From: a virus | IMG/VR virus record: IMGVR_UViG_3300009181_002905 | Span: 1-27,536 of that record | Length of the DNA stretch: 27,536 nucleotides | Direction: 5' to 3' (one strand) | In this document: positions 9,345-26,587 of the stretch, piece after piece | Numbering within the stretch: the first letter of the stretch is position 1 | How the letters are laid out: each line of letters starts with the position of its first letter | The notes under the pieces: model-generated | Told to the model about the DNA's origin: nothing | Databases searched by the model: none | The model's input: the letters and a program-made list of their open reading frames with translations, nothing else | Made by a program: the position numbers and the translations under genes

Positions 9345-9362
9345 TAGCTGATAGGAGTTGCT

Positions 9363-9629
9363 TTGCTGGCCGAAGTACAAAAATCAAATCGGGATGGCTT
9401 GACGGCGCTACGTGATCTGCTGGCCCGAACGCTTGAGGACGCAGAACCGAAAGACGTTGCTTCGTTGGCGGGCCGGTTACAGTCGGTTTTGGCGGCGTTG
9501 GATGCGTTGCCGTTGGCGAAGGGGATAAATCCACTTGACGAAATCGCAGCTAAGCGTTCAAAACGTCGTGCTCCCGCGAGTACTGGTGGTGCCACCCCGG
9601 ACGGAAAGCGCGGGGCAAGAGGCGGTTGA
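9363..9629 (+). CDS. Terminase small subunit-like protein
   Basis: Protein of 88 residues that starts at TTG 9363, with AGGAG five bases upstream, which decides the start. It is helical (LTALRDLLARTLEDA, SLAGRLQSVLAALDALP) with a basic, Ser/Gly-rich tail (AAKRSKRRAPASTGG), the build of the short small-terminase proteins found directly before large terminases in actinophages. It would recognise the packaging site and load the motor. Its 3' end overlaps the large terminase by 95 bases. The assignment rests on build and position rather than a signature motif. Confidence 0.65.
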   Translation: MLAEVQKSNRDGLTALRDLLARTLEDAEPKDVASLAGRLQSVLAALDALPLAKGINPLDEIAAKRSKRRAPASTGGATPDGKRGARGG

Positions 9630-10944
9630 CATCGCAGCCTCTGCCGGTTTGTTCCTTGATGAATGGCAGGCGTTAGCGCTTGATGAGGCGTTAGGCGAGG
9701 TTGACGGTAAGTGGGCGGCGTTCGAGGTTGGGTTGGTGTGTCCGCGTCAGAACGGCAAAGGGTCAATCTTGGAGGCTCGAGCGCTTGCGGGCCTTTTTCT
9801 GTTTGACGAACGGCTAATTATTTGGTCGGCCCACGAATTTAAGACCGCGAAGGAGGCTTACCTGCGGGTTCGCCGGCTGATAGAAGACACCCCACACCTA
9901 AACGCATTGGTTCACCGCTACTACCAGTCAAACGAAATGACCGAAATTGTTTTGACGTCCGGCGCCCGGCTCAAGTTCCTAGCCCGGAACAACACTTCGG
10001 CGCGTGGGTTCACGGGGGATTGTGTGATCTTGGACGAGGCGTTTGCGTTGACGCCGGACACGATGGCGGCGATTTTGCCGACGATGGCCGCGAAGTCGGT
10101 CACCGGTAACCCACAATTGTGGTACACGTCGTCGGCGGGGATGCGTTCTTCTGTGCAGTTGCGAGCGGTCCGTAAACGTGCTTTGTCGCCGTCTCCTGGG
10201 TCGTTGTGCTGGTTGGAGTGGTCGGCACCGGTCGAGGCGCGCGACAGCCCGGAGGATCGAACGTGGTGGCGTCAAGCGAACCCGGCGTTAGGTCATCGGA
10301 TCTCTGAAGATTTTGTGGCGTCGGAGTTTGCTTCGATGTTTGACGAAGGGCTCGAGCAGTTCTGCCGGGAACGGCTAGGGGTGTTCGACGAGGATGAGGT
10401 TATTGACGCGGTGTTCCGTGCGGGGCAGTGGGCTGCGGTCGAGTCGCCGGACGTGTTTAACGGCGGTTTGACGTTTGCTTTGGCGGTGAACCCTGAAAGG
10501 ACGCACGCTGCTATCGCGTGTGCTGATCGTTCGGGTTTGTGTGAACTTGGCGCATATCGGCCTATGGGCCCTTGGGTTGTTGAATTAGTTGCCGAATTGG
10601 CAATAAAGCATGGTTCGACGGTAGCTGTGCAAGAATCGGGGCCGGCTGGGTCGCTGATAGCAGAGATCCAAGCGGAAGGCGTACAAGTCGAGTTGATTTC
10701 GCATTCTGATTTGCGTGCGGCGTGCGGATGGATGTTCGACGCTGTCGCTGCTGGTAAGGTTAGGGTCCGGAAGCATCCGCAATTGGATGCTGCGGTTTTG
10801 GCTACGGTGAAGAAACCTTCTGGTGATGGGTTTGTGTGGGATCAACGCGCCGGGGATGTCAGCGCTTTCGTAGCGTTGACGCAAGCGGCGTATATTGCGG
10901 CAACAAAGTCGGAAGTGATGGTGCCTCTTGGAGCGTGGCGGTGA
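9535..10944 (+). CDS. terL: Terminase large subunit
   Basis: Packaging motor ATPase, 469 residues. ATPase domain: RQNGKG Walker A (71-76) after AFEVGLVCP, the WSAHEFKTAKEA segment (97-108) and Walker B CVILDEAF (163-170, D167/E168). The C-terminal half has the layout of the RNase H-like nuclease (ALAVNPERTHAAI near 316-326, ESGPAGSLI at 367-375, GDVSAFVALTQAA at 440-452). Two positions where I expect acidic residues read A-V-N and Q-E (see findings). The start used is TTG 9535, with AAGGGG upstream; a GTG at 9568 is an alternative that shortens the overlap with the small subunit. Confidence 0.92.
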   Translation: MTKSQLSVQNVVLPRVLVVPPRTESAGQEAVDIAASAGLFLDEWQALALDEALGEVDGKWAAFEVGLVCPRQNGKGSILEARALAGLFLFDERLIIWSAHEFKTAKEAYLRVRRLIEDTPHLNALVHRYYQSNEMTEIVLTSGARLKFLARNNTSARGFTGDCVILDEAFALTPDTMAAILPTMAAKSVTGNPQLWYTSSAGMRSSVQLRAVRKRALSPSPGSLCWLEWSAPVEARDSPEDRTWWRQANPALGHRISEDFVASEFASMFDEGLEQFCRERLGVFDEDEVIDAVFRAGQWAAVESPDVFNGGLTFALAVNPERTHAAIACADRSGLCELGAYRPMGPWVVELVAELAIKHGSTVAVQESGPAGSLIAEIQAEGVQVELISHSDLRAACGWMFDAVAAGKVRVRKHPQLDAAVLATVKKPSGDGFVWDQRAGDVSAFVALTQAAYIAATKSEVMVPLGAWR

Positions 10945-11131
10945 ACGGCTGCAAATAGTAGGCGGCTTTTTTGGCGCGTTGGGGCTAGGGTTGTTTATTG
11001 GTGCGCTTCTCGGTCTTTGGGCCGGGGTTGGGGTAGCGTTGTGCGTGTCGGGCTGCGCTGCGGTCGTCGTCGGATTTCTGAAAGAACGTGAGGTGACCGA
11101 TGGGGCTAGCTCGTCTGTTGTCAACACGTAG
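10928..11131 (+). CDS. Small membrane protein, 67 residues
   Basis: Gene overlapping terminase by 17 bases and portal by 32 bases. After a short charged N terminus the product is a nearly continuous hydrophobic stretch, residues 10-50 (VGGFFGALGLGLFIGALLGL then WAGVGVALCVSGCAAVVVGF), read as two membrane segments with a tight turn, ending in KEREVTDG. The start is TTG and has no good ribosome binding site, so translation may depend on the terminase gene. Function is unknown; similar small membrane proteins sit between terminase and portal in other actinophages. Confidence 0.55.
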   Translation: MERGGERLQIVGGFFGALGLGLFIGALLGLWAGVGVALCVSGCAAVVVGFLKEREVTDGASSSVVNT

Positions 11132-12437
11132 CAACGAATCCCGGTCGACTTTCTCATTCGACGAATATCTACGTCTGATAACGAACGAATTTACGTTCTC
11201 GGGTATCAAGTACATCACCCCGGCGGCGTCTTACGCAGAGTTGACAGCAGCACAAGGGCAAAGAAACCCGATTGTCGCAGCGTGCGTAGCTGTCAGGTTG
11301 CTTGTGTTCGCCGAAGCCCGTTTTACATGGCAGTCTTTGAACGGTGGCCGCCCAGGGAAACTGTTCGGGAACCAGGAACTCGAATTGCTGGAATCGCCGT
11401 GGCAGACCGCTACAACCGGCGACCTTTTGGCCCGCTGCGAGGTCGACGCGTCGTTCTACGGGAACAGTTATTGGATACGTGAACGATCCGCTTTCGGTAA
11501 CCGCGACATACTTACCCGGCTTGACCCGACTAAAGTCATTATCATCGACGCGGATCTCGGCGGCTACTCGCGCGAGCTGGTCGGGTACGCGGTCACTGAC
11601 CAGGCCGGGAATGTTGTCGGCCAGTGGGACGCTAGCGAAGTCGCGCATTATCGGCCGTTGCCAGACCCGACGCATCCGTTTAGGGGCCGTTCGTGGCTCG
11701 ACGCAATCCTGCCCGATGTCACAGCGGACACGGAACTTACCCGCTATAAGACGTCGTTTATGCAGAATAGTGCAACGCCAAATATGGCTGTTTCGTTAGA
11801 CGCCGGGGTTTCACCGGCACAATTCGAATCGTTTGTAGAGAAAATGGACGCTTCGCACAAAGGTGTCGCGAACGCTTTTAAGACTTTGTATTTGGGTGGC
11901 GGCGCCGACGTAAAGGTAGTCGGCGCGAACTTTGAGCAACTAAACCTAAAGAACGTGCAAGGCGCGATTGAGTCGCGTATCGCCGCCGCTGCGGGTGTGC
12001 CGGCGTCTATCGTCGGCCTGTCCGAGTCGATGCAAGGTTCGTCGTTGAACGCCGGGAACTATCAGGCGGCGCGTCGCAGGTTCTCCGATGGGACGATCCG
12101 GCCGTTGTGGCGGTCTGTCGCAGGGGCAATGTCGACGCTATTGATTGCGCCTCGAGCATCGCGCCTATGGTTCGACGATCGCGACATCTCATTCTGCCAA
12201 GAAGACGTAAAAGACGCCGCAGATATTAAACAGGTCGAGGCGCAAGCGTTAAAAACGTTGATTGACGGCGGTTTCGACCCGGATTCGGCGATTGAAGCTG
12301 TCACGACCGGAGATTTCTCGGTACTCAGCCATTCCGGGCTGGTTTCCGTGCAGCTCCAGCCGCCCGGAACGCTAGCCGCCGCGCCTCCGCTTGACCCGTC
12401 CGCTGTCCCGGCCCCCCAAGCGCTCCCGGTTGCCTAA
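11100..12437 (+). CDS. Portal protein (HK97-type)
   Basis: Portal of 445 residues that forms the DNA gateway of the head. Typical features: NPIVAACVAVRL near 56-67, the ASFYGNSYWIRE segment (117-128), a stem region with DPTHPFRGRSWLDAI, and GVPASIVGLSESMQGSS in the C-terminal half before SLNAGNYQAARRRF. The start is ATG with GAGGTGA just upstream. The C terminus is Pro/Ala-rich and likely flexible. It is followed by protease and capsid genes in the standard HK97 order. Confidence 0.9.
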   Translation: MGLARLLSTRSNESRSTFSFDEYLRLITNEFTFSGIKYITPAASYAELTAAQGQRNPIVAACVAVRLLVFAEARFTWQSLNGGRPGKLFGNQELELLESPWQTATTGDLLARCEVDASFYGNSYWIRERSAFGNRDILTRLDPTKVIIIDADLGGYSRELVGYAVTDQAGNVVGQWDASEVAHYRPLPDPTHPFRGRSWLDAILPDVTADTELTRYKTSFMQNSATPNMAVSLDAGVSPAQFESFVEKMDASHKGVANAFKTLYLGGGADVKVVGANFEQLNLKNVQGAIESRIAAAAGVPASIVGLSESMQGSSLNAGNYQAARRRFSDGTIRPLWRSVAGAMSTLLIAPRASRLWFDDRDISFCQEDVKDAADIKQVEAQALKTLIDGGFDPDSAIEAVTTGDFSVLSHSGLVSVQLQPPGTLAAAPPLDPSAVPAPQALPVA

Positions 12438-12460
12438 GCGCAACCCACGAAGGATCAAAC

Positions 12461-13300
12461 ATGACCACATCAGAACGCGCCGCCCCTACCGATAACCTGA
12501 TCCGCTCGTCGGCGCCGTCAACGTCGACCATCGCGCTCGGCTCCACTGACGGCGGCGCCGACGGCCGGACTTTGTTCGGCCATTTTTCGGTATTTGACAC
12601 ATGGACCGAAATAAACTCGATGTTCGAAGGCCGGTTCTTGGAGCGGATCGGCCAGGGTGCGTTCCGGGACACGTTCAAAGCGCAACGAGGCCAAATCCGG
12701 GTGATTTTCCAACACGGACGAGACCCGCAGATTGGCGACAAGCCACTAGGCGCCCCCGACGTGCTCCGAGAAGACGCCCAGGGCGCTTATTACGAATCCG
12801 AACTGTTTGACACGCCATACGTAAACGATCTACTGCCGGCGTTGCGTGCGGGGCAGTTGGGGGCGTCTTTCCGGTTCCGGGTCACCGCCGAAGAATGGGT
12901 AGACCCAAAGAAAGCCACGTCGTCGAACCCTGACAAACTCCCCGAACGTACCATAAGGGCCGTTCACCATTTCGAGCATGGGCCTGTTACTTGGGGTGCG
13001 TATTCTGACGCCACGGCCGGTGTACGCTCAGGGACAGATGACTTTATCGAGTCGTTGATGACCGACCCGCGGTTTGTGGCCCGTTTCACCGAACGCGCCG
13101 GACTAAAAGTAGTTGAAAAGATCCTGTCGACGCTGCCTGCTCTTGGGCGCAGCGACGACACCGGAACGGAACCCGACGCCGTCGGTTCCGACGAACAAAT
13201 GCCTGATGTGTCGGTCGTCGACCATGCAGAGGATTACCGCAACCAGATCGCCGCGACGCTTATGCGTTTCCGGCACGAACCGAAAGGCCCCCCATGTTGA
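12461..13300 (+). CDS. Prohead protease (HK97/U35-like)
   Basis: Capsid maturation protease of 279 residues. The N-terminal part has the family pattern FGHFSVFDTWTEI and ERIGQGAFRDTF; probable catalytic residues are His85 in IFQHGRDP and Ser136 in GASFRFR. The C-terminal 90 or so residues are acidic and may serve as scaffold. The start is ATG 12461 with GAAGGA upstream. The stop overlaps the capsid start by 7 bases. It would trim the N-terminal delta domain of the capsid protein during maturation. Confidence 0.88.
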   Translation: MTTSERAAPTDNLIRSSAPSTSTIALGSTDGGADGRTLFGHFSVFDTWTEINSMFEGRFLERIGQGAFRDTFKAQRGQIRVIFQHGRDPQIGDKPLGAPDVLREDAQGAYYESELFDTPYVNDLLPALRAGQLGASFRFRVTAEEWVDPKKATSSNPDKLPERTIRAVHHFEHGPVTWGAYSDATAGVRSGTDDFIESLMTDPRFVARFTERAGLKVVEKILSTLPALGRSDDTGTEPDAVGSDEQMPDVSVVDHAEDYRNQIAATLMRFRHEPKGPPC

Positions 13301-14691
13301 TTAACGACATTAACGCCCGCCTCGGTGAGATTGACGCGGAGCTAGAACTCCTCGCAGCTCTCCCCGATCCCACCGCCGACGACGTCGCCCGTTCCGAGGA
13401 ACTGATCTCCGAAGCCGACGAACGCCGCGCTGCCCGCATCGCCGCTAACGAGCGTTCGCAGCGTATCGCGGCCGCTCACGCCACGGCAAAGGAACAGAAC
13501 CGCGATTTCGGCGGGTCGCCGTTCCAGATCATGGCAAAGGTTGACGCCTACGGCACCGACCTCCGCATGATGGACGCCGGCCAGGTAAAGGACGCCGCCC
13601 GCTCAATCCTCGAGCGTAGCGAAGCCCGCCACCTTGCATCCGACTCGAAAGAGAAAGCCGAAGGGCTCATTCAGAACCTTGATGCTCGTCTCGCGAAGCT
13701 GGTCATTACGACCAGCCGACCCGAGTACCGGTCTGCATTCGGGAAGTACATCACCGGCCGCGAAGGGCTTTTGTCGAACGACGAGCGCCGCGCAGTCGAG
13801 GAGTCCCGCACGAGCCTCGCGCTCGCTGACGCTAACGGCGGCTATGCCGTCCCGGCGCTGCTCGACCCGTCGATCATCTTCACCGGTTCCGGTACCGCAA
13901 ACCCGATGCGTCAGGTGTCGCGTGTCGTCACCGGCATTGATGACACTTGGCGTGGCGTCACGTCCGCCGGTATCACCGCATCATGGGATTCGGAAGCCAT
14001 TCAAGTTTCTGATGATGGGCCGACTCTCGGGCAGGCTACCGTTGTTTCGCACAAGGCTGCGGCGTTCGTGCCGTTCTCCGTGGAGATCGAAGGCGACTGG
14101 ACCGGCCTCGCGTCGGAAATGTCGATGCTGTTCGGCGAAGCGAAAGACACCCTAGAGACGGCCGGTTTCGCGACCGGTTCCGGTATCGCAGACAACCCGT
14201 ACGGTATCCTCACCGACTTGTTTGCCGCGTCGGCGACTGTTGGCGTGTTGCCGACCACCGACGGTTCGTTCGGTGCGGTTGACGTGCGAGCGTTGTTCGG
14301 TGCTCTCGGTCCTCGTTACCGAGGCCAGGCAGCGTTCATGTCGTCAATCGACGCCATGAACGAAGTCAGAGGTTTCGACACGACCGGCGGGCTCAGTAAC
14401 CAGACCGTCGACCTTACCCAGCCGTACAACTTCGCGGTGTTGGGCCGTCCGTACTACGAGAACTCGGGTTTCCCCGATTTCTCCGGTACGACCGGTGCGG
14501 CTAACATCCTCGTCGTCGGCGATTTCAGAAACTACGTGATCTTTGATCGTGTAGGCTCCCGAGTAGAGTTCATCCCGCATCTGATGGGCGCCAACAACCG
14601 GCCCAACGGAACCCGCGGCCTTTACTTCTGGTGGCGTGTCGGCGGCAAGACCGTCAACACGAACGCATTCAGGCTTCTTCTGAACGCCTAG
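13294..14691 (+). CDS. Major capsid protein (HK97 fold)
   Basis: Major head protein of 465 residues. Residues 1-140 are charged and helical (INARLGEIDAELELLAAL, SEELISEADERRAARIAANE), the built-in delta scaffold removed by the protease; mature sequence probably begins near SRPEYRSAFGKYITG. The rest follows the HK97 pattern: GGYAVPALLDPSII (N-arm), ASEMSMLFGEAKDTLE (spine helix), AFMSSIDAMNEVRGFD and a C-terminal GLYFWWRVGGKTVN. A strong hairpin follows the stop. It is the most abundant virion protein and a likely acceptor for the glycans suggested by the neighbouring genes (inference). Confidence 0.92.
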   Translation: MLINDINARLGEIDAELELLAALPDPTADDVARSEELISEADERRAARIAANERSQRIAAAHATAKEQNRDFGGSPFQIMAKVDAYGTDLRMMDAGQVKDAARSILERSEARHLASDSKEKAEGLIQNLDARLAKLVITTSRPEYRSAFGKYITGREGLLSNDERRAVEESRTSLALADANGGYAVPALLDPSIIFTGSGTANPMRQVSRVVTGIDDTWRGVTSAGITASWDSEAIQVSDDGPTLGQATVVSHKAAAFVPFSVEIEGDWTGLASEMSMLFGEAKDTLETAGFATGSGIADNPYGILTDLFAASATVGVLPTTDGSFGAVDVRALFGALGPRYRGQAAFMSSIDAMNEVRGFDTTGGLSNQTVDLTQPYNFAVLGRPYYENSGFPDFSGTTGAANILVVGDFRNYVIFDRVGSRVEFIPHLMGANNRPNGTRGLYFWWRVGGKTVNTNAFRLLLNA

Positions 14692-14700
14692 TAATTAAGG

Positions 14701-14740
14701 ATTCCCCCCGGTCTGCCTAGGCGGTCGGACCGGGGGGAAT
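14701..14740 (+). terminator. Strong hairpin after the capsid gene
   Basis: Perfect 13-bp inverted repeat, ATTCCCCCCGGTC (14701-14713) and GACCGGGGGGAAT (14728-14740), 14-base loop, nine bases after the capsid stop. There is no T tract, so it may be a partial terminator or an mRNA-stabilising structure that keeps capsid expression above that of the genes downstream. Confidence 0.6.
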
Positions 14741-14767
14741 AACCGCCTACACCGCCCAGGGGAAACG

Positions 14768-15013
14768 ATGGCAAAATATAAATATCCGCGATACGACACA
14801 AACGTACGTGACGCAGGCAGCAAATATCCGACCGAGATCCGTATAGGCCAAAAATGGCACGCGGATTATCCGCTCGTAAAAGCTCATCCCGAACTGTTCG
14901 GCGATGAGCCATCCGGGGAACCGTTGCCACGAGGGTTTATCCCTCCGGTAACTCGCGTGGAACAAGCCTCCGCGTCTCCCGGTGAGCGCCGGTCGGTCCG
15001 CCGTGACGATTGA
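14768..15013 (+). CDS. Hypothetical small structural-region protein, 81 residues
   Basis: Short protein starting at ATG with AGGGGAAACG upstream, first gene after the capsid hairpin. Begins MAKYKYPRYDTNVRDAG and contains ADYPLVKAHPELFG; the tail is Pro/Ser/Arg-rich. Short proteins with a similar AHP-[DE]-LF segment are common after capsid genes in actinophages, of unknown function. Its 3' end overlaps the next gene by 32 bases with the upstream start, 11 with the alternative start. Confidence 0.6.
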   Translation: MAKYKYPRYDTNVRDAGSKYPTEIRIGQKWHADYPLVKAHPELFGDEPSGEPLPRGFIPPVTRVEQASASPGERRSVRRDD

Positions 15014-16412
15014 CCCCGGATCAGTCCGGGTAGCGGTCCTCGTCGACGACGACCACGGCTACCACCCAAACTTTATGGATTCTTGGAACCCGATGCTAGC
15101 CGCCGACCTCGGCGGTCAACAGCGGGTGTGGCGCGGCGGGTACGCGTTCCAGCGTTGCACATCCGCCGGCGTCGTCGAAGGCCGCAACGAAGTCGCAAAA
15201 AACCTGCTTAGCTCGACCGCCGAATGGTTGCTGTTCGTCGACGCCGACATGGGATGGGACCATACAGCGCTCGAGGATCTGATGGCGGTCGCTGACCCGG
15301 TCGCCCGTCCAATCGTCGGCGGTTTATGTTTTGGGTTCGGTCCGATCACCGATCGGATGGACCACGCAAACGCTGTAGTTAAAGTCCCGTTTCCCACGAT
15401 CTTTGACCTTGTGGAACGAGACGACGATTTTGCGTTCCGTCCCCGTTTCTGGTATAAGCCAAACAGCGTTGTCGAATGTTCCGCTACTGGCGCAGCAATG
15501 CTGCTCATTCACCGCACGGTGTTCGAGGCGATCGCAGCTAAACCGGAACTCGGCCAGCCGTTCGACCGCATGAAGCATCCTCGTGGGAAGAAGCTGTGGG
15601 GTGAAGACACGTCGTTTTGTGCCCGTGCGAAAATGTGTGGTTTTCCGACGTATGTGCATACGGGCGTGAAGACTTCGCACGCCAAAACGGTTTATGTGAC
15701 CGAGTCGACGTTTCTAGCGCAGGTGCGGCCGCAACCGGCGACCGAGCAGGTAGCGGTTGTGGTCCCTGTGATGAACCGGCCGCAAAACGCGCGGCCGTTT
15801 ATGGAATCGTTGCGTGCGTCAACCGGGCTAGCTGCCGTGTATGCCATCGCAGACCCCGACGACCCCGAAACTTACATGGCGTGGATCGCTGCCGGCGCCG
15901 AAGTGCTACTAACGGAAACGGGGCGGTCTTCGTTCCCGCAAAAAGCAAATTTCGGATATGCGCACACTTCGGAACCGTGGCTGCTAGTCGTCGGCGATGA
16001 CGTGCGTTTTCATCCGGGCTGGTTGGACCACGCGCAGCAAACCGCTGCGATTACCGGCGCCGACCTAGTCGCAACAAACGACCTAGGAAACCGTCGCGTC
16101 GCCGACGGATTCCACGCAACGCACCCAATGATCCGCCGCACCTACATTGACGAACAGGGCGCGTCGTGGGACGGCCCCGGCGTCCTAGTACACGAAGGGT
16201 ACCGGCACAATTTCTGCGACGACGAATGGTCGGCGGTCGCCCGTCAACGTGGCGTGTTCGCCCCGGCGCTCGGCGCTCTCGTGGAACACAACCATCCGAT
16301 CTTCGGGAAGGCCGAAGACGACGTCGTGTACCGCAAGGGGAAAGCGCACTACGACCAGGACCGCCGCCTGTTCGAGCGCAGGCTCCGCGACAACACGCAG
16401 GCGTCGGCATGA
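14982..16412 (+). CDS. Two-domain glycosyltransferase (GT-A + GT-A-like)
   Basis: Protein of 476 residues with two nucleotide-sugar transferase-like halves. Domain 1 (20-245): VRVAVLVDDD, GRNEVAKNLL, LLFVDADMGW with the metal-binding D87-A-D89, and a later CGFPTYVHTGVKTSH, a GT2-like layout. Domain 2 (about 255-450): VAVVVPVMNRPQNARPFMESL and VVGDDVRFHPGW (D339-D340), again GT2-like, ending with VEHNHPIFGKAE. It probably transfers sugars, perhaps in two steps, to a virion protein or lipid carrier in the cytoplasm; acceptor and donor are unknown. GTG 14982 overlaps the previous gene by 32 bases and neither it nor GTG 15003 has a clear ribosome binding site. Coupled to the next gene by ATGA. 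Confidence 0.78.
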   Translation: MSAGRSAVTIDPGSVRVAVLVDDDHGYHPNFMDSWNPMLAADLGGQQRVWRGGYAFQRCTSAGVVEGRNEVAKNLLSSTAEWLLFVDADMGWDHTALEDLMAVADPVARPIVGGLCFGFGPITDRMDHANAVVKVPFPTIFDLVERDDDFAFRPRFWYKPNSVVECSATGAAMLLIHRTVFEAIAAKPELGQPFDRMKHPRGKKLWGEDTSFCARAKMCGFPTYVHTGVKTSHAKTVYVTESTFLAQVRPQPATEQVAVVVPVMNRPQNARPFMESLRASTGLAAVYAIADPDDPETYMAWIAAGAEVLLTETGRSSFPQKANFGYAHTSEPWLLVVGDDVRFHPGWLDHAQQTAAITGADLVATNDLGNRRVADGFHATHPMIRRTYIDEQGASWDGPGVLVHEGYRHNFCDDEWSAVARQRGVFAPALGALVEHNHPIFGKAEDDVVYRKGKAHYDQDRRLFERRLRDNTQASA

Positions 16413-16591
16413 GTTCGATAGAACGGCACTGCACGCCACATGGGTTCATCGGTCCACTGGAGCCATTGAAGTCTCTTTGCGCTCGCCGACATTGGCCCGC
16501 CGGGTCAGGGGCTTTCGATGTCATCTGCGATTACTGCGGAACCGAGTTCGGTTGGCACGTCGGCCGCAGGCTCCGCAACAACAGCAAATGA
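16409..16591 (+). CDS. Small CxxC protein, 60 residues
   Basis: Tiny gene linked on both sides by ATGA overlaps: to the two-domain glycosyltransferase before and to UDP-galactopyranose mutase after. The product has four Cys, C8, C24, C40 and C43 (ICDYCGTEFGW), suggesting a zinc ribbon-like fold. Position inside the sugar genes suggests a partner or stabiliser of these enzymes, but no function is recognised. Confidence 0.6.
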   Translation: MSSIERHCTPHGFIGPLEPLKSLCARRHWPAGSGAFDVICDYCGTEFGWHVGRRLRNNSK

Positions 16592-17646
16592 TCAACGTCG
16601 CGGGTGCCGGCTGGTCCGGCGCAGTGATCGCACGCCGCCTCGCTGAAACAGGGCGCTGTGTGACCGTATGGGAGCCCCGCAGCCACGTCGGCGGGAACTG
16701 CTACACCGAACGCCGCCACGGCATAAACGTCCACGTCTACGGGCCGCACATCTTCCACACATCAAACGAGCGGGTCTGGCGTTGGGTGAACAAGTGGGGG
16801 ATGTGGGAACCGTACCGGCTGAAAGTTATGTCGACCGCTCAGGGCGGCGTGTACTCACTGCCGGTGAACATGCACACCATAAACCAGGCGTTCGGGACAA
16901 CAGAAACACCGAAAGGCGCACGGCGACTACTTGAGCTAGGAACAGGCGGTGACACGTTTGAAGATGCCGCCATTGGGGCCGTCGGCGAACGCTTGTACCG
17001 TCTCCTATTCGCCGGGTACACCGCGAAGCAATGGGGTTGCGACCCCAAAGACTTGCCGGCGTCAGTGTTCCGGCGCCTCCCGGTCCGGTTCAACTACGAC
17101 GACAACTATTTCGAGCACCGATGGCAAGCCATCCCCCGCAACGGTTACACCCCGATCTTTGAACGGATCTTGGACCATCCGAACATCACCGTACGGCTCA
17201 ATGAGGCGTGCCCCCGTGGCGGGGAACACACCTTCTGGTCAGGTCCGCTCGACGGATGGTTTGGGCATGATGACGGCGCGTTGCATTATCGGACGTTACG
17301 GTTTCAACACATCGAATCGTCGGGGGATTGGCAGGGTGTTGCGTTAATGAACTACCCGGACCGCGGTATCCCGTGGACGCGCAGCGCCGAACATAAACAT
17401 TTAGCGCCGTGGGAGTCGCACGACCGGACGATCGTTACCCGTGAAGTGCCAGCTGAATGCGGCCCGGCTGATATCCCGTTTTACCCGATGCACGATCAAC
17501 CGATGTTGCACGCCTCGTATCTTGAACGCGCAGCACAAGAAAAGAATGTAACGTTTGTCGGACGGTTAGGTACCTACCGTTATCTTGATATGGACGTCAC
17601 GATTTCCGAAGCGCTTGACGCAGCGGACCGATACTTAGCAGCCTGA
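16588..17646 (+). CDS. glf: UDP-galactopyranose mutase
   Basis: Flavoenzyme of 352 residues that converts UDP-galactopyranose to UDP-galactofuranose, the donor for Galf-containing glycans. Full-length match to bacterial Glf: FAD-binding GAGWSG (6-11) with the HVGGNCY loop, YGPHIFHT (51-58), LPVNMHTINQ, GYTAKQWG, RLPVRFNYDDNYF (163-175, active-site Arg167), IPWTRSAEHKH with Arg265, and the C-terminal FAD motif RLGTYRYLDMDVT (326-338). All key residues are present, so activity is expected. Starts at an ATGA overlap. Galf is a core component of mycobacterial and corynebacterial cell walls, so such hosts would supply UDP-galactose. In this operon it more likely serves phage-coded glycosyltransferases. 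Family identity is very secure. Confidence 0.95.
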   Translation: MINVAGAGWSGAVIARRLAETGRCVTVWEPRSHVGGNCYTERRHGINVHVYGPHIFHTSNERVWRWVNKWGMWEPYRLKVMSTAQGGVYSLPVNMHTINQAFGTTETPKGARRLLELGTGGDTFEDAAIGAVGERLYRLLFAGYTAKQWGCDPKDLPASVFRRLPVRFNYDDNYFEHRWQAIPRNGYTPIFERILDHPNITVRLNEACPRGGEHTFWSGPLDGWFGHDDGALHYRTLRFQHIESSGDWQGVALMNYPDRGIPWTRSAEHKHLAPWESHDRTIVTREVPAECGPADIPFYPMHDQPMLHASYLERAAQEKNVTFVGRLGTYRYLDMDVTISEALDAADRYLAA

Positions 17647-17655
17647 GGGGGCTAC

Positions 17656-18345
17656 ATGACCGCCTTACTTCTTTCCGCACTTTATGGCAACTACGACGCG
17701 TTAAAGCATCCCCCGGAACAGGAAGGCGACGTGCGGTGCATGTTGCTAACCGACGACCTGACCGTGGAATCGGATGTGTGGGAAGTCGTGTACTGGCCTA
17801 AACCGCATATGATTGGGCTGCTCGCGGCGAAAGCGCCGAAGATGCTCCCGGCCCTCTATGCGCCGGACTGCGACGCATCAGTGTGGGTCGACGCGTCCGT
17901 GCAAGTCTTGTCGCCGACGTTCACCGCCGAATGTGTCGAATATGCCCGAGACGGGTTCGCGACGTGGCCGCACCCGTGGAACCCGACACTAGCCGCCGAA
18001 GCCGCCGAATCGTTGCAACAAACCCGCTACCAAAACCAGATGCTCGAGCAGCAAGTCGAGCGCTTCCACGCAGAAGGGCTCCCCGCTGATACCTCCGTCC
18101 GGCATACCGCAGTAGTCGCAAGGGCACACAATGACGCGACGCTAACCGCCGGCTATTTATGGGACGCCGAATATGAGTGGTCGATGGCCGATCAGATAGG
18201 TTTCATGTACGCTACCTGGCGGGCGGGTGTGCCAATGTACGAACTACCAATGTCGCAGGCGTTCTTGCAAGGGTTCTTGACCCCTGCCCGCCCCGACCGT
18301 TGGCTTTCGCATCACAGCCACCTGAAAGGCTATTGGGCGCCATGA
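17656..18345 (+). CDS. DUF616-like glycosyltransferase
   Basis: Protein of 229 residues. The start has LLLSALYGNYDALKHP (YGNYD 10-14), then VRCMLLTDD, WEVVYW, AKAPKMLPALYAPDCD and VWVDASVQV with Asp79, the pattern of DUF616/TOD1-type glycosyltransferase-like proteins, where the V-D-A-S motif lies in the nucleotide-sugar site. The start is ATG 17656 with AGGGGG upstream, nine bases after the glf stop. Coupled by ATGA to a methyltransferase. Probable third sugar transferase of the module; sugar specificity is unknown. Galf is a plausible donor given the neighbouring mutase (inference). Confidence 0.72.
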   Translation: MTALLLSALYGNYDALKHPPEQEGDVRCMLLTDDLTVESDVWEVVYWPKPHMIGLLAAKAPKMLPALYAPDCDASVWVDASVQVLSPTFTAECVEYARDGFATWPHPWNPTLAAEAAESLQQTRYQNQMLEQQVERFHAEGLPADTSVRHTAVVARAHNDATLTAGYLWDAEYEWSMADQIGFMYATWRAGVPMYELPMSQAFLQGFLTPARPDRWLSHHSHLKGYWAP

Positions 18346-18881
18346 TAAAAGAACTATTTGACCGGTACCGAAACACCCCGTCCGATATCTCCGGGCACCT
18401 TCAATACATGCACGACCTATGCGTCGAGCTAGGCGCAACATCCGTTGTTGAACTCGGCGTACGAACCGGCGTTTCGACCGCAGCGTTCCTAACAGCTATG
18501 GAACACAACGGCGGGACTGTTTGGTCCGCGGACATCGACGCGCCACGGGTAGACCCCGAGATCGCAAACCATCCGTGCTGGCAGTTCGTATGGGGCGACG
18601 ACCTCGAACTAATCGACCTTGCCCCCGAAGCGGATATAGTCTTTATTGACACTTCGCACGCCTACCAACAAACCCTAGATGAGCTTGACGCATACAGCCC
18701 AAAAGCGCGCCAAGTGATCCTGTTGCACGACACCCAACTAGAGCAGCCCGAAGGGCTCATAAACCAGCCGCCGTTCCCTGTCAGGAAAGCGTGCCTAGAA
18801 TGGCTTGACCGGAACCCCGGTTGGGATTGGGAAGAATTCGAGCACTGCTATGGCCTCGGTGTGATGAGGAGAATGACGTGA
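18342..18881 (+). CDS. SAM-dependent methyltransferase (class I, probable sugar O-methyltransferase)
   Basis: Protein of 179 residues with a Rossmann methyltransferase core: motif I VVELGVRTGVST (35-46), acidic motif II ending WSADID, IVFIDTSHAYQQTLDEL with Asp103, and VILLHDT. This is the Methyltransf_24/cephalosporin hydroxylase-like layout found in sugar O-methyltransferases. No DNA-methylation catalytic motif is present, so a small-molecule or glycan substrate is favoured. It starts at an ATGA overlap with the DUF616-like gene and ends in a GTGA overlap with the head-tail adaptor, so it is expressed with both. Methylation of the added sugar is inference from context. Confidence 0.78.
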   Translation: MIKELFDRYRNTPSDISGHLQYMHDLCVELGATSVVELGVRTGVSTAAFLTAMEHNGGTVWSADIDAPRVDPEIANHPCWQFVWGDDLELIDLAPEADIVFIDTSHAYQQTLDELDAYSPKARQVILLHDTQLEQPEGLINQPPFPVRKACLEWLDRNPGWDWEEFEHCYGLGVMRRMT

Positions 18882-19519
18882 CCATCACTAACGGGCTGCT
18901 AACCGCCCCCGAGTATGCTTCCTATACCGGGGCGGACGCGCCACTAGGGCTAAGGCTTACACAATGGGAAACAGCGATCGAAGTCGCTTCCCGTTGGGTT
19001 GAGCAGCACTGCGGACGCCAGTTCCACGAAACGGACACCGGGGCTTCGCCGACCCCATCAGCCCGCTATTTCGAGGCGACCGGCGACAAAGTCCAAATAA
19101 CCGACTGTCAGTCTGTGACCATCGTCCAGACAGACACCTTGGACGACGGCACCTATTCGACAACCGTTCCCACATCCGATTATCAACTCCTGCCCGTCGG
19201 CGGTTTCGACGACTTGCTAGGCGTGTCGGTGCCGTATACGGCGATTAAGCAGACGGTGTGGGCGACTTGGCCTGTCGGGTATAGGGACCAGCCGATCAAA
19301 GTTACGGGCCTTTGGGGCTGGGCGGCTGTCCCGTCCGCGGTCAAACGGGCGACGGCGATCCTTGCCCAAGACTTGCTACGCGACCCCGAAACAAACTTTG
19401 GTGGCCTGGTAGCGCAGAGCGATGGGGTTGTGCTGGGGTCGCGTGTCCCGACGCGAACTATCACGCTTCTTGATCCTTATGTGCGGGCGGTCCGTGCGCC
19501 GGGGGTTCAGGTCGCGTGA
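18878..19519 (+). CDS. Head-tail adaptor (connector) protein
   Basis: Protein of 213 residues resembling gp6/gp15-type head-tail connectors: helical N terminus with LRLTQWETAIEVASRWVEQHCGRQF, a beta middle, and GLWGWAAVPSAVKRATAILAQDLLRD in the C-terminal half, a layout typical of the adaptor ring under the portal. The start is GTG 18878 in a GTGA overlap with GAGGAG upstream. Its late position after an insertion of sugar genes is unusual; normally it follows capsid closely. Confidence 0.78.
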   Translation: MTITNGLLTAPEYASYTGADAPLGLRLTQWETAIEVASRWVEQHCGRQFHETDTGASPTPSARYFEATGDKVQITDCQSVTIVQTDTLDDGTYSTTVPTSDYQLLPVGGFDDLLGVSVPYTAIKQTVWATWPVGYRDQPIKVTGLWGWAAVPSAVKRATAILAQDLLRDPETNFGGLVAQSDGVVLGSRVPTRTITLLDPYVRAVRAPGVQVA

Positions 19520-19890
19520 ACGTCGCCGAGATCCGCGAACAACTAGCGTCGGCGCTCAGCGAAGCTGATATGTACGTCGCCAAATATCGGAACGAACCAA
19601 CAGACGGTTTCCCGCTGGCGATTATCAACGTCGATTCGATGATCGCTGACACGTTCCTCGATGGCTCTTACGCTCTGACGGTAACCGTCACGGTTCTCGT
19701 TTCGCGTGCTGATGTTCCTGACGGCTGGTCCCGGCTGGACCAACTGTTGTCGGATGACACGATCGGCGACGCGTTGCGTTCCGCCGAGTGTGTCGCGACA
19801 GTCGGCGCCTATGACCAGATAGGCGACGAAATCGAATACGACGCTGGCGTTCACATCGGTTTCACGGTCGCTGTTGAAGTGTTGGCCTGA
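19516..19890 (+). CDS. Head closure/neck protein, 124 residues
   Basis: Short protein with a helical start (VAEIREQLASALSEA) and beta strands (SYALTVTVTVLVSRADVP, HIGFTVAVEVLA), as in the tail-terminator and head-closure proteins of siphoviruses. The GTG start overlaps the adaptor stop (GTGA). Which neck role it has is not resolved by sequence; position suggests tail completion or head closure. Confidence 0.6.
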   Translation: MNVAEIREQLASALSEADMYVAKYRNEPTDGFPLAIINVDSMIADTFLDGSYALTVTVTVLVSRADVPDGWSRLDQLLSDDTIGDALRSAECVATVGAYDQIGDEIEYDAGVHIGFTVAVEVLA

Positions 19891-20489
19891 TGGGTGTGTC
19901 TAGTTCACCAGCGAAGTTTGTCTTGAAAGTTAACGAGCTGACAAAGGTTCCTGAGCGGGTAGCGTTGACCGCTGTTCGCGTCAACGCAAAAAACGCAGGG
20001 TCGAACGCCGAAAAGTCTGTTAGGTCCGCTACGAACGGTTCGGGGCGGCTCCGTAACGCAGGGGCGTTAGTTCGTGCGCCCGGAGCGCAACGCCGGGTCG
20101 TGGGCCGTAAGGGGGCACGGTTGCGAGTGTCTACGAGGGTCGCGCCTGGCGGGCAGTTTGCGACAATAAAAGCTCTTGGCCCGTGGCAACTTATCGAATA
20201 TCCGACTGTGAGCCACGAGATCGGCCCCAGCGGCCAAACAAAAGATGTACTGGCCGGCCCTACGCTTTCCGGGCGGAAACTGAAATCGAAATCGGGACGC
20301 GCCGGGGCGAAAGGGCGCCAAGGTCGCGCTAAAGCATTACGGACCCCTTACGGGCTTAAACGGCGAGTGTACGTCAAAGGCACTAAAGGAAAGTTTCCGT
20401 GGCGTGCCGCCCGGCTAAAAACGTACCGTGAAGCGCCGCTAGCAATAAAGAAAGCGGCAACAGCCGAACTAGCAAAGGTGTTCCGATGA
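19890..20489 (+). CDS. HK97 gp10-like neck/tail protein, 199 residues
   Basis: Very basic protein (RRVVGRKGARLRVSTRV, SGRKLKSKSGRAGAKGRQGR) starting at an ATG that overlaps the previous stop (TGATG). Size, charge and position between the neck and major tail genes fit the HK97 gp10-like/minor neck group. The Lys/Arg-rich middle suggests contact with DNA or acidic virion surfaces. Assignment is by context, so moderate. Confidence 0.55.
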   Translation: MGVSSSPAKFVLKVNELTKVPERVALTAVRVNAKNAGSNAEKSVRSATNGSGRLRNAGALVRAPGAQRRVVGRKGARLRVSTRVAPGGQFATIKALGPWQLIEYPTVSHEIGPSGQTKDVLAGPTLSGRKLKSKSGRAGAKGRQGRAKALRTPYGLKRRVYVKGTKGKFPWRAARLKTYREAPLAIKKAATAELAKVFR

Positions 20490-21496
20490 GAGCACTAGTG
20501 ATTGAACCGGGGCCGGCTTTCTCGGTGCTCGACGTTCAACGCGGCATCGTTGCCGGGCTACGCCACAACGGCATCGAAGCGCACTCGTTCAACCTCGGCG
20601 ACCGCCTCAACCTATACTGCAACGCAGAACTAGCCGTCGACGGCGAATATCGGAAAGCGTTTGAAAGCGAAGCAGCGTACGCCCTAGCGTCAGAAGGAAT
20701 CCTGTCCGCCTGCTGGAAATACGGCCCCGATATTGTTGTCATGGTTTCATCGTTTTTTACCCCGCCGGCGATCTACGAAGCGCTCCGGGCACGAGGCGTA
20801 CACGTCGTCCTTTGGCTGACCGAATCGCCGTACGAAGACGCCCGCCAAATCCCAATGGCACCCTACGCCAACACGGTCATAACAAATGACCCAACGAACC
20901 TAGACGACTTCCGGGCCGTGAACCCGAACACCCACTATATTCCGCACGGCTACCACCCCGAGATCCACCACAACCAAAACAGGACCGGCCAATACCCGTT
21001 TACGTTTGTCGGGACCGGGTATCCGTCACGGATAGAACTTTTCGAAAAAGTTGATTGGCCGTGCGAGCCGCTGTTCGCCGGTAACTGGCAGTCGGTAACA
21101 GACGACTCGCCGTTGTTGCCGTTCCTGCTATATGACCGCGACCAGTGCATAGATAATGACTCTGTCGCCGACCTATACCGGGCGTCGATCACATCTGCAA
21201 ACATTTACCGTAAAGAAGCGATGTCCGACGACCTCGTAGCGGGATGGTCGATCGGCCCACGCGAAGTGGAACTAGCTGCGTGCGGCACCTATTTCGCTCG
21301 GGAACCTCGAGCAGAAGGCGACGACCTGTTCCCTATGTTGCCAGCATTTACCGAACCCGGCGAGCTAGCAGATATCGTCCGGTGGGCACTCAACCATCCC
21401 GACGAACGGTTTGCCGCAGCTCAACAGGCACGGGCCGCCGTTACGGATCGCACATTCAAAGACAACGCAGCACTACTTTTAAGGCACATCGGCTAA
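20486..21496 (+). CDS. GT-B glycosyltransferase (CgeB-like)
   Basis: Protein of 336 residues with a two-Rossmann GT-B layout: N-terminal MRALVIEPGPAFSVLDVQRG and PDIVVMVSSFFTP, VVLWLTESPYED, linker NTHYIPHGYHPEIH, then FTFVGTGYPSRIELFEKV, SGIT-like repeats replaced here by ASITSANIYRKEA, and GPREVELAACGTYFARE near 255-271, the donor-site motif of CgeB/DUF3880-type transferases. It overlaps the preceding gene by ATGA and is followed by the major tail protein. It is separated from the other sugar genes by three neck genes. Adjacent position to the tail tube gene hints at tail-tube glycosylation (inference). Confidence 0.8.
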   Translation: MRALVIEPGPAFSVLDVQRGIVAGLRHNGIEAHSFNLGDRLNLYCNAELAVDGEYRKAFESEAAYALASEGILSACWKYGPDIVVMVSSFFTPPAIYEALRARGVHVVLWLTESPYEDARQIPMAPYANTVITNDPTNLDDFRAVNPNTHYIPHGYHPEIHHNQNRTGQYPFTFVGTGYPSRIELFEKVDWPCEPLFAGNWQSVTDDSPLLPFLLYDRDQCIDNDSVADLYRASITSANIYRKEAMSDDLVAGWSIGPREVELAACGTYFAREPRAEGDDLFPMLPAFTEPGELADIVRWALNHPDERFAAAQQARAAVTDRTFKDNAALLLRHIG

Positions 21497-21580
21497 CGTC
21501 GGTCCCTGAGGGGGGACAATTCTCCGGTAACCAATCGAATGCCGCGTTCCGGGGCGGCCCATCCCCTATAGGAGAACCCA

Positions 21581-21979
21581 ATGGCGCGTATCAGCGGCAA
21601 AAACGGCATTCTGTATGCAAACATCACATCGGGCGGCACCGCCGAACCGATAGCGTTCCTTAACCAGTTCTCTATGGACTTCACGACCGATAAACAGGAC
21701 GTGTCCTGTTTCGGTGACACGACAAAGCAGTACGTTTCCGGGTTCGCTGACGCGTCCGGGGCGTTTGCCGGTTTCTACGACAACGCAACCGCGCAGCTTT
21801 ACACGGCTGCGATCGACGGCGTAGCCCGCAAATTCTACTTTTACCCGACGACCGCATCGACGGCACAGTATTGGTTCGGGACCGGGATTTTCGATTTCTC
21901 AATCTCGGAACAAACTTCGGGTGGTGTCGCTATCTCCGGTTCGTGGGCGGCGGCTACTGCTGTCGCCAAGGTAGGCTAA
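21581..21979 (+). CDS. Major tail (tube) protein
   Basis: Protein of 132 residues, starting with ATG after AGGAG (strong ribosome binding site). Beta-rich with ISGKNGILYANI, FLNQFSMDFTTDKQDVSCFG, and a C-terminal GGVAISGSWAAATA; this fits the short tail tube proteins of actinophages. It stands before the tail chaperone and tape measure, the fixed position of the tube gene. Rich in Ser/Thr, as glycan acceptors often are. Confidence 0.8.
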   Translation: MARISGKNGILYANITSGGTAEPIAFLNQFSMDFTTDKQDVSCFGDTTKQYVSGFADASGAFAGFYDNATAQLYTAAIDGVARKFYFYPTTASTAQYWFGTGIFDFSISEQTSGGVAISGSWAAATAVAKVG

Positions 21980-22000
21980 CCGTCGACAAGAGGGGAAACT

Positions 22001-22306
22001 ATGTGGACGCTCACTTTCGAGGATCGCAAACACCGCGAAAACGATTTGACGATCGGGCAAGCGGAACGCATCGAGGACATGACCGGCGAAAGCTGGTTGC
22101 GTATCGTCCCTTTGCGTTCCGCTAAACACGCCCGGTCGATCCTGGTCGTGATGCACGCAGACGCCATCGGCGAAGCCGACGACGTGGTAGCGGCACGCGT
22201 TAAAGCGTTGAAAATGTCAGACTTCCTGAAAATGTACGGCACCGAGGAAGATGACGTGCCGTCGATGTATACCGACGGAAACCCTCCGGCGGCGGACGCG
22301 CCCTAG
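22001..22306 (+). CDS. Tail assembly chaperone, short form (gpG-like)
   Basis: Protein of 101 residues between tube and tape measure, starting at ATG with AGAGGGG five bases upstream. N terminus MWTLTFEDRKHREND, helical middle (VVAARVKALKMSDFLKMYG) and acidic Pro-rich end. Siphoviruses express a short and a frameshifted long chaperone from this position to guide tape-measure folding; the slippery site is at 22279-22285. Confidence 0.78.
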   Translation: MWTLTFEDRKHRENDLTIGQAERIEDMTGESWLRIVPLRSAKHARSILVVMHADAIGEADDVVAARVKALKMSDFLKMYGTEEDDVPSMYTDGNPPAADAP

Positions 22307-22413
22307 ACGGCTTCATTTGCCTATTCGCGCGTTCGCCGTGGTTCTGGCCTCCTGATGTGGTACGCAAACAGAAGCTCCGCGATTTGCGGATGCTGCTCGA
22401 GTCGATAAGTTAA
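22001..22413 (+). CDS. Tail assembly chaperone, -1 frameshift form (gpGT-like)
   Basis: Predicted fusion made by slipping -1 at AAACCCT: residues 1-95 of the short form continue into SGGGRALDGFICLFAR, then SPWFWPPDVVRKQKLRDLRM and LLESIS, ending at TAA 22411-22413, 137 residues in all. The second part has the typical WFWPPDVV-type sequence of gpT segments and has no ribosome binding site of its own. The last stop in this frame before the slip site is at 22252, so the open region allows the fusion. Confidence 0.72.
22279..22285 (+). promoter_or_regulatory. Programmed -1 frameshift slippery heptamer
   Basis: A AAC CCT in the zero frame matches the X XXY YYZ rule exactly (AAA, CCC, T). It is seven codons before the stop of the short chaperone and is the only such heptamer in the window between the last -1-frame stop and the zero-frame stop. 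Confidence 0.7.
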
Positions 22414-22421
22414 GGTGGGTT

Positions 22422-24698
22422 GTGGCTGGAACCGTTGAACGCTTACAGTTCTTAGTCACGTCAGATTCGGCGCAGGCGCGTGGCGACCTCGGGAAACTGA
22501 ACCAGTCGGCGTCGGCGTCGATGTCTGGCATCGCGAAGCTCCAAGAGGCGTTTAAGCTCGGCGCCGGCATCGGCGTCGGTACCACAGCGGTCGAAGGTGT
22601 CATCGGCGGTTTGCAGAAACTGGGCGGGTTCGCCCTGTCGCAGATGGAATCCGCGATCGGCGCCGCGTCGGATCTGCAACAATCCGCCGGCGCAGTGAAA
22701 GCAATTTTCGGTTCTGCGTCGAACACGATAAACGATTTTGGGCGTACGTCGGCGCAGTCTGTCGGCTTGTCAACGGCGGCTTTCAGCCAGAGCGCTGCGA
22801 CGCTCGGCGCGTTCTTGCAAAATTTGGGTTTGACTAACGACGCTGCGGCTTCGACGTCGATTTCGTTGGTGCAAGTTGGAGCGGATCTAGCTGCGGCGTT
22901 CGGCGGCAAAACGTCTGATGCTGTCGCCGCTATCGGTTCGGCGTTACGTGGCGAACGCGACCCAATCGAACGATACGGGATCAGCGTCAAGCAAGCGGCT
23001 GTAGATGCACGGGTGTTGGCTTCTGGCTTGGACACGTCTACGCAGGCGGCGTTAACGAACGCTCAAGCTCAAGCAACCTTGTCTCTGATCCAAGAACAGG
23101 CCGGGAAGACCGCCGGCCAGTTTGGCCGCGAGTCTGACACGCTTGCGGGGCAGCAGCAGCGGTTCACCGCCGAACTAGAAAACGCACGCGCCGAGCTCGG
23201 AACTGCGTTACTGCCAGCCATGACCGAACTAGTCAAAATCGGTCGCGATCTGATACCGGTTATCGAAGGGGTAGCGCTCGGCGTCGGCCTAGTAGCCGAA
23301 GCAGCAAAAGACGCCGCCGAACCGGTCGGGAAACTAGCCGGCGTTCTCGGCGCCCTTGTGAAAGCGCTCCCCTCTAACCCTCTAAAGAAATTGTTCGGCG
23401 GGGGGATGAGTGACGAAGAATTTAATCGGCTTGTCGCCGAAGGGGAAGCCACTAAAGCTCTCGCCGATAAAGAATTAGAATTGGGGGAAAAGTCAAGGGT
23501 GGCGGCAGCGGGCACTAAACTTCTCGCCGATCAGATGACCGATTTGCAGAAAGCGTCGTCGGGGCTTCTTGGTTCGCTTATCGGCGCCGACTCGGCAGAA
23601 TCAGCATTCTTTAAAACACTTGAAAGCGGCAGTTCTTCCGCCGGGTCAAGCGCAAAAAAGATTGAACGTGCTTACCGGTCTATAGAAGACGCGCAACGAT
23701 CTTTAACAGATTCGCAAAAAGAACTAGAAGAATCGTTGATCGCCCGTTTTGTTGTCGGGTTGGGGGCAACGTCGGACGAAATTACGTTAGGTCAGATCGC
23801 GGAGCGTGATTCGACGCGTGGATTGGCAGACGCGAAACGTGATTTGGCTGACGCGCAGTCGCGGCTAAACAAGTTGCGCGAGGTTGACAAGGCCGGGCTC
23901 CTCGACGCCGAAGCCGCATATATTCAAGCTCAACGCGATTTCGTCGACGCCGAAAAGACCGGCGATATTGTGCAACTGAACCGGGCGAAAGCAGATTTGT
24001 TACGCACAGAGAAAGCGTTGGGCGAGCAGCGCGACCCGTCGGTTACCGGCGATTTGGCGCAAGCCGAACAGGACGTAGCCGCCGCTCAGGACGCGGTGAC
24101 CACCGCAGAGATCGACGCGGTACGATCCCGTAAGGATCTAAACGACCTGATAAACAGCGGCAAGGAAGGTTCTCTGGACCTTGCCGAAGCGAACAAGCAG
24201 GTCGAAGCGGCGCAGCGACGCGTTGAAGGTTCGGAACGGGCGTTGGCCGACGCCCAGGACGCTCTGAACGAGTCGGCGTCGGGGCTCGGCGGCTCAGTCA
24301 AGAACGTAAACAAACAATTTGAGGACGGTTTGACCGCAGCCGACAAATGGTTGCAAAAACTTATAGACGAGAAAACCACCCCCGAAAAGTTTTCGGCTGC
24401 CGTCGCCGCCATTTATGGCAACCTAAAAAATGTCGCCGACCAGGCAGGCGAAACAGGCAACCTTGACACTTACCTTTCTAAGATCAGCGAAATTTATGCA
24501 CAGATCAGGAACATTTCAGGGTTCGGCAATTTCGCGCCAGGCGGTTTCTCAAACGACCCGGCGAACGCGTTCCAATCACTCCCCGAAACAAAAATTGTTA
24601 TGAATTTGAACGGCCGCGAATTCGGGGCGGCTGTCGTAGAAGGCTTGTTGGCTTACCAGTCAGCGAACGGCAGCGTTCCCATTAGGGTCACCGGATGA
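22422..24698 (+). CDS. Tape measure protein
   Basis: Longest protein of the window, 758 residues, setting tail length and ejected with the DNA. Residues 1-300 have the tape-measure core (GDLGKLNQSASASMSGIAK, LGAFLQNLGLTNDAAAS, GSALRGERDPIERYGISVKQ); 300-330 are hydrophobic; 400-640 are long coiled coils (RDLADAQSRLNKLREVDKAG, EANKQVEAAQRRVEGSERAL). By the usual 0.15 nm per residue, the tail would be roughly 110 nm. The start is GTG with AAGGTGGG just upstream, nine bases after the frameshift product stop. Confidence 0.9.
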   Translation: MAGTVERLQFLVTSDSAQARGDLGKLNQSASASMSGIAKLQEAFKLGAGIGVGTTAVEGVIGGLQKLGGFALSQMESAIGAASDLQQSAGAVKAIFGSASNTINDFGRTSAQSVGLSTAAFSQSAATLGAFLQNLGLTNDAAASTSISLVQVGADLAAAFGGKTSDAVAAIGSALRGERDPIERYGISVKQAAVDARVLASGLDTSTQAALTNAQAQATLSLIQEQAGKTAGQFGRESDTLAGQQQRFTAELENARAELGTALLPAMTELVKIGRDLIPVIEGVALGVGLVAEAAKDAAEPVGKLAGVLGALVKALPSNPLKKLFGGGMSDEEFNRLVAEGEATKALADKELELGEKSRVAAAGTKLLADQMTDLQKASSGLLGSLIGADSAESAFFKTLESGSSSAGSSAKKIERAYRSIEDAQRSLTDSQKELEESLIARFVVGLGATSDEITLGQIAERDSTRGLADAKRDLADAQSRLNKLREVDKAGLLDAEAAYIQAQRDFVDAEKTGDIVQLNRAKADLLRTEKALGEQRDPSVTGDLAQAEQDVAAAQDAVTTAEIDAVRSRKDLNDLINSGKEGSLDLAEANKQVEAAQRRVEGSERALADAQDALNESASGLGGSVKNVNKQFEDGLTAADKWLQKLIDEKTTPEKFSAAVAAIYGNLKNVADQAGETGNLDTYLSKISEIYAQIRNISGFGNFAPGGFSNDPANAFQSLPETKIVMNLNGREFGAAVVEGLLAYQSANGSVPIRVTG

Positions 24699-26584: not shown

Positions 26585-26587
26585 CTT

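Follow-up and report, generated by a model that had tools for sequence, protein, structure and literature searches.

An uncultured actinophage-like siphovirus with a putative virion-glycosylation cassette and exchangeable donor-sugar step in its head-tail operon

A row of predicted sugar-handling genes lies among the structural genes of IMG/VR virus record IMGVR_UViG_3300009181_002905, a partial record from a soil bacteriophage whose whole 27,536-bp stretch was analysed and is called the window here. On the plus strand, like all the genes of this row, an HK97-type major capsid protein (13294–14691; PF05065 2e-31, phrog_10 6e-33) is followed by GT2x2, our name for a tandem two-domain GT-A glycosyltransferase of 476 amino acids that forms the core of the cassette (14982–16412; PF00535, PF13641); a 60-residue CxxC protein, an open reading frame with a weak match to PHROG 2210 (16409–16591; E 0.004); Glf, a 352-residue UDP-galactopyranose mutase, the enzyme that turns UDP-galactopyranose (UDP-Galp) into UDP-galactofuranose (UDP-Galf) (16588–17646; PF03275 8e-64, PHROG 9677 7e-98); a GT-A-type glycosyltransferase of the DUF616 family, currently named TOD1_MUCI70 (17656–18345; PF04765 6e-8); and an S-adenosylmethionine-dependent O-methyltransferase of the Methyltransf_24 type, RMNT_CmcI-like (18342–18881; PF13578 7e-11, PF04989 1.5e-6). 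A head-tail adaptor (18878–19519; phrog_442 6.5e-18) marks the downstream boundary. An earlier, sequence-only reading of this DNA had proposed these five genes between capsid and adaptor, joined mostly by ATGA/GTGA overlaps; all five are open at these positions, and such 4-nt overlaps occur at four of the five junctions from GT2x2 through the adaptor, Glf and the DUF616 gene being separated by a 9-nt gap. Missing from its list was a sixth enzyme, a PF13524 glycosyltransferase (20486–21496; 1.1e-10) directly upstream of a putative tail tube gene, which is named by position only (21581–21979). The gene order is real, since a separate IMG/VR contig matches window positions 9104–27536 with 99.95% identity over 18,433 bp; this rules out an assembly chimera.

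The nearest annotated capsids all come from phages of actinobacteria: the capsid protein of the window is 37–42% identical to the major capsid proteins of the Mycobacterium phages Brujita and prophiGD02-2, and about 40% identical to that of Gordonia phage Eyre. A nucleotide search of annotated phages with the cassette region gave no match, and the capsid operons of Brujita and prophiGD02-2, the two inspected, hold no annotated glycosyltransferase.

GT2x2 consists of two GT2-type domains (PF13641, residues 80–241; PF00535, residues 259–365). For each, a GT-A fold is predicted and the acidic motifs, DxD and catalytic, are present, the invariant residues being a DxD (D87, D89) and an ED (E208, D209) in the first domain and D340, D413 and E415 in the second. 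An AlphaFold2 model with a predicted local distance difference test score (pLDDT) of 89.5 likewise places two GT-A domains in tandem. Its Foldseek neighbours are themselves tandem GT-A enzymes (COLGALT1, K4CP, LH3 and mimivirus R699), a likeness at the level of fold only, with a template-modelling (TM) score of about 0.3. Domains and model together bear out the two-domain glycosyltransferase first read from the sequence. A tblastn search of INPHARED, a collection that has no Corndog records, gave no full-length relative of this protein among 50,697 phage records, but only partial matches of 26–31% identity in five records, none of them from a mycobacteriophage.

Two profile scans of IMG/VR each matched 232–233 contigs, of which we looked at the best 80 per scan, for a total of 118 distinct loci. 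Many of these are fragments with mechanical gene calls, and the counts, which depend on purpose-built hidden Markov models and on dereplication, are lower bounds. The capsid gene stands directly upstream of GT2x2 in 101 of the 107 distinct loci that show the region, and the head-tail adaptor closes the cassette in 68. A single GTDB genome holds a GT2x2 relative, that of the named isolate Amycolatopsis pretoriensis DSM 44654, where it belongs to a related prophage region with no Glf in the part covered. GT2x2 is, on these searches, a predicted phage enzyme family not found in annotated phage records and with a fixed place behind the capsid. What looked like an insertion in the GT2x2 of three loci (L030, L039 and L065 in our numbering) is a separate, stand-alone copy of the N-terminal domain that follows the two-domain gene.

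Glf is apparently active in converting UDP-Galp to UDP-Galf, as judged from its sequence. It is 52% identical to the Klebsiella pneumoniae mutase (2bi7), carries the GLF domain at 215.5 bits against a PF03275 cut-off of 26.3, matches NAD_binding_8 (4e-20) and has the GxGxxG motif of FAD binding as GAGWSG at residues 6–11. Residues R163, R265, R326 and W149 are identical to R174, R280, R343 and W160 of the Klebsiella enzyme, as are Y144, Y174, Y299 and Y332 to Y155, Y185, Y314 and Y349; we take the arginines to be catalytic and the aromatic residues to contact the uracil and the diphosphate. The earlier description of Glf as complete is thus upheld by a full-length domain match and by identity at the catalytic positions and GxGxxG motif. 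Against the NCBIfam equivalog TIGR00031 the protein aligns over its full length at 272.7 bits, under the cut-off of 303.75, which is a naming threshold rather than a biochemical feature; Glf is therefore a divergent member to which the curated name does not pass automatically. An origin from a mycobacterial-type Glf is not favoured, the K. pneumoniae type being nearer (E 1e-113) than the M. tuberculosis enzyme (5e-73). Within the phylum to which A. pretoriensis belongs, a few genomes encode relatives at 49–57% identity; of 296 genomes sampled there, about 48 have a substantial match, which reaches 57% at best. The phage enzyme may therefore provide some hosts with a sugar that they lack, or enlarge a pool already present.

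The DUF616 protein scores 32.8 bits for PF04765 (cut-off 21.4), and its AlphaFold2 model (pLDDT 87) predicts a GT-A fold whose nearest neighbours are retaining UDP-Gal/GalNAc transferases and UGGT. It is 31–46% identical to the DUF616 proteins at the same place in related phages and is, as these comparisons suggest, the fast-changing transferase of the cassette. In one relative (L072:8214–9728) the gene product is enlarged to 504 residues by an intein-like insert (CAPGDQMVWTTNRGKVRIDELIEG ... VEPHHTYVGDDQILFNC) for which Pfam gives no intein match. The O-methyltransferase belongs by its matches to Methyltransf_24 and the rhamnosyl O-methyltransferase/CmcI family and recurs in 23 GT2x2 cassettes. 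The PF13524 transferase has no match in annotated phage records, and its gene directly precedes the putative tail tube gene wherever both are shown (20 of 20 loci). By a simple hydropathy scan, all six proteins of the enzyme set are predicted to lack membrane segments.

The CxxC gene overlaps both of its neighbours by 4 nt. Its product has neither a Pfam or NCBIfam family nor a confident homologue, and a search with the 60-residue protein alone gave a significant match only to itself; apparent matches in three loci (L062, L066 and L070) are artefacts of stop-to-stop frames overlapping the glycosyltransferase gene. One cluster of four cassettes holds small proteins outside any Pfam family (L067:12794–13135, L027:11443–11841), and that of L067, with two CxxC pairs, is possibly analogous to the protein of the window.

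What varies in the cassette is clearest from L062, the sister of the window in the GT2x2 tree (support 100/100). GT2x2, the methyltransferase (70%), the adaptor, the PF13524 transferase and the tail tube protein are 70–74% identical between the two phages, whereas the DUF616 proteins share only 36%. L062 lacks Glf, and the slot held in the window by the CxxC gene and Glf is occupied there by an NAD-dependent epimerase/dehydratase of the short-chain dehydrogenase/reductase (SDR) type. The epimerase is present in L009 and L063 too, the next closest phages, and so is probably ancestral, Glf being derived. An SDR epimerase and a DUF616 gene, usually with the methyltransferase, occur together in over a dozen GT2x2 loci, a recurrent pairing which suggests that the donor enzyme is tied to the DUF616 transferase. 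Elsewhere, an SDR gene adjoins a DUF616 gene in about 25 viral contigs in which neither GT2x2 nor this capsid type was detected (L111–L113, L116, L120–L124 and others). The interval between GT2x2 and the adaptor may also contain O-methyltransferases, a sugar C-methyltransferase, GT2 and GT17 transferases, 2OG oxygenases, FAD oxidoreductases and other NDP-sugar enzymes. The cassette looks modular from this comparison, with a fixed first transferase and a donor-sugar enzyme and DUF616 transferase that differ between phages.

The same interval can also hold a second, predicted kind of furanose mutase. A protein of the GT75/RGP family (PF03214, 8e-46), similar to the UDP-arabinopyranose mutase 8cid (3e-18), is encoded together with GT2x2 in L040 (12932–13894) and L232, and after the capsid or before the adaptor in L233, L234, L235–L237 and L246; the gene lies next to the capsid or adaptor in at least seven contigs. 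In annotated phage records the family matches one huge uncultured phage only (LR756511). GT75 enzymes, among them plant UAM/RGP, MtdL and Hyg20, convert NDP-pyranoses into NDP-furanose donors; they form a family other than Glf, being metal-dependent and free of FAD, and interconversion of UDP-Galp with UDP-Galf is reported for one of them from a plant (PMC9937993). That this interval can hold either of two unrelated enzymes with a common type of chemistry is the strongest hint that furanosyl donors matter to these phages.

Glf itself was found in this population alone (two contigs) among the 118 loci, drawn from the best 80 of 232–233 per scan, so rarer Glf-bearing relatives could have escaped. 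The sequence-only reading had regarded Glf with several transferases in a late operon as a combination not known as a described system, and had suggested a search for the same gene order in other phages. Within this head-operon family the Glf version is indeed confined to the one population; the GT2x2 architecture, in contrast, occurs widely, other enzymes taking the slot, and viral Glf is common overall, being present in at least 592 viral contigs.

Our best explanation, to which we assign a probability of about two in three as a whole, is that the window derives from an uncultured actinophage-like siphovirus whose head-tail operon holds a virion-glycosylation cassette with an exchangeable donor-sugar step. 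The cassette would be expressed late and decorate virion proteins in the cytosol. GT2x2, made beside the capsid protein, would start or build a glycan whose acceptor is a virion protein, the capsid being the likeliest. Glf would draw UDP-Galp from the host pool to make UDP-Galf, from which the DUF616 transferase, or one of the GT2x2 domains, would add a furanosyl sugar for the O-methyltransferase to cap. The PF13524 transferase probably does likewise for the tail tube protein, which is made right after it and is a possible second acceptor. The donor enzyme and the DUF616 transferase would together set which sugar is attached, and because both vary within a modular cassette, the sugars on the virion surface would differ from one related phage to the next. 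This reading is supported by the capsid-adaptor position in more than 100 loci, the joint difference in donor enzyme and transferase, the lack of membrane segments and the precedent of the cluster O phages described below. A methylated Galf glycan on the virion, built from a donor made by the phage itself, had been proposed before: the comparison favours a unit of donor enzyme, transferase and O-methyltransferase that acts on virion proteins; the acceptor, the order of reactions, the identity of the sugar and the methyl-Galf structure are our inference. The benefit may lie in evading surface-directed defences or antibodies, or in tuning adsorption.

Several observations weigh against this explanation. 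Gene order cannot name an acceptor, and transferases made together with virion proteins could act elsewhere. The fold match of the DUF616 model reaches a TM score of only about 0.5. One lineage (L092, L101 and kin) has GT2x2, DUF616 and the methyltransferase without any donor enzyme; further lineages, such as L132/L031, also show a divergent or exchanged DUF616; and the window and L062 both sit on long branches of the DUF616 tree, so that the difference may stem from rapid divergence and not from replacement. As Glf occurs in one population, the case for its coupling to DUF616 draws on a single event.

The same restriction raises the main internal doubt, namely that Glf is an uncoupled passenger: a recent stray acquisition that raises UDP-Galf in the host, beside a virion glycan that contains no Galf. 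The frequency of phage Glf in other contexts and the lineage that does without a donor enzyme speak for this as well. We nevertheless consider it unlikely, because Glf lies exactly in the slot of the relatives' NDP-sugar epimerase, overlaps the CxxC gene by 4 nt and has an intact active site, and because the DUF616 protein is as far from that of the sister phage as from distant ones at a locus where the other genes are 70–74% identical.

Equally improbable, in our estimate, is that the cassette remodels the host envelope, for example Galf-containing arabinogalactan or other surface glycans, during late infection or in the prophage state, blocking superinfection or keeping virions off debris. 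In cells Glf usually serves the making of envelope polysaccharides, and Galf is used by mycolata-type hosts; moreover, the one relative in a cellular genome is the A. pretoriensis prophage, whose host has a Glf of its own (46% identical to that of the window). A role at the host envelope has been proposed for glycosyltransferases of other actinophages (PMC10202952). The six soluble-looking proteins argue otherwise, as does the lack of a flippase or lipid-carrier transferase in the cassette, which differs in this from the gtr-type seroconversion module with its membrane flippase and membrane-anchored bactoprenol transferases. The fixed place between capsid and adaptor, together with a transferase beside the tail tube, better suits virion proteins. 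That the enzymes instead glycosylate modified DNA bases against restriction is very improbable: phages do use sugar-modified bases, and the early region of the window has two overlapping DNA methyltransferase genes (3805–5037, N6/N4-type; 5034–5975, C5-type), yet these lie far upstream of a cassette set in the late structural operon, the families scanned in part of the early open reading frames of this partial record include no nucleotide hydroxymethylase or base-hypermodification gene, and the sugar O- and C-methyltransferases of the cassettes fit protein glycans as well.

For the favoured reading, virion glycosylation, the closest precedent is probably that of the Corndog type. Published accounts of the cluster O phages describe an O-methyltransferase and glycosyltransferases among the structural genes, expressed in infection, with capsid peptides under-detected (PMC4351075), and state, citing Freeman 2023, that these enzymes modify capsid and tail tube (PMC11600133). 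Corndog gp35–gp38 resemble the cassette in combining an O-methyltransferase with several glycosyltransferases in a structural operon; they differ in lying between portal and protease, and the excerpted account describes no donor-sugar mutase or epimerase (PMC4351075). Che8 gp108–gp110 (cluster F1) are alike in their GT2-type glycosyltransferases and a Methyltransf_24/TylF-type domain, but lie at the right genome end instead of the head operon, and gp108 is a transferase-methyltransferase fusion; in the related F1 phage Maravista the capsid is described as possibly glycosylated (PMC11256854). The window shares the Corndog/Che8-type combination of glycosyltransferase and O-methyltransferase genes within or beside virion genes. 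Phage-borne Glf of Aeromonas T4-like phages, Rhizobium/Agrobacterium phages and Streptococcus suis prophages is 35–43% identical to that of the window, but is not shown in a capsid-adaptor cassette, and that of Atu_ph04 is described merely as a host-survival gene (PMC6630229). New here, on the predicted functions, are the enzyme family, its fixed position and in-operon donor synthesis by two unrelated furanose mutases.

Phage glycosyltransferase genes are usually left as accessory genes with no assigned role. Those described here have a position, a conservation and a pattern of natural replacement that speak for decoration of the virion and suggest a donor-making step as well as one likely acceptor apiece for GT2x2 and the PF13524 enzyme. 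A broader proposal, to which we give somewhat less than an even chance, is that virions across a large group of uncultured actinophages bear methylated glycans with furanose in them, the donors being made by the phage in the head operon, that the FAD-dependent Glf and the metal-dependent GT75 mutase were recruited independently to the capsid-adaptor interval, and that the surface sugar switches much like a serotype when donor enzyme and transferase are exchanged. Were this so, the sugar coat of a phage virion could be switched, furanoses included; this would bear on how antibodies recognise therapeutic phages and on surface-directed host defences, and would yield new enzymes of the Galf and GT75 kinds along with their cognate transferases. 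To our knowledge, furanoses of this kind are not made by mammals.

Three minor features of this operon and of related ones are of note. An 81-residue protein (14768–15013, plus strand) between capsid and GT2x2 has a weak match to a head-tail connector (phrog_9538, E 0.004) and relatives in 92 loci, where they adjoin the capsid or GT2x2 gene. Genes for 2OG-Fe(II) oxygenases, which perhaps hydroxylate acceptor residues or sugars, are found in cassettes of related phages (L014:7468–8088, L066:8975–9586, L061:11361–11993), with 10 loci in one cluster. In one locus (L049:8635–9549) the encoded protein combines collagen repeats with a Gp10 C-terminal domain.

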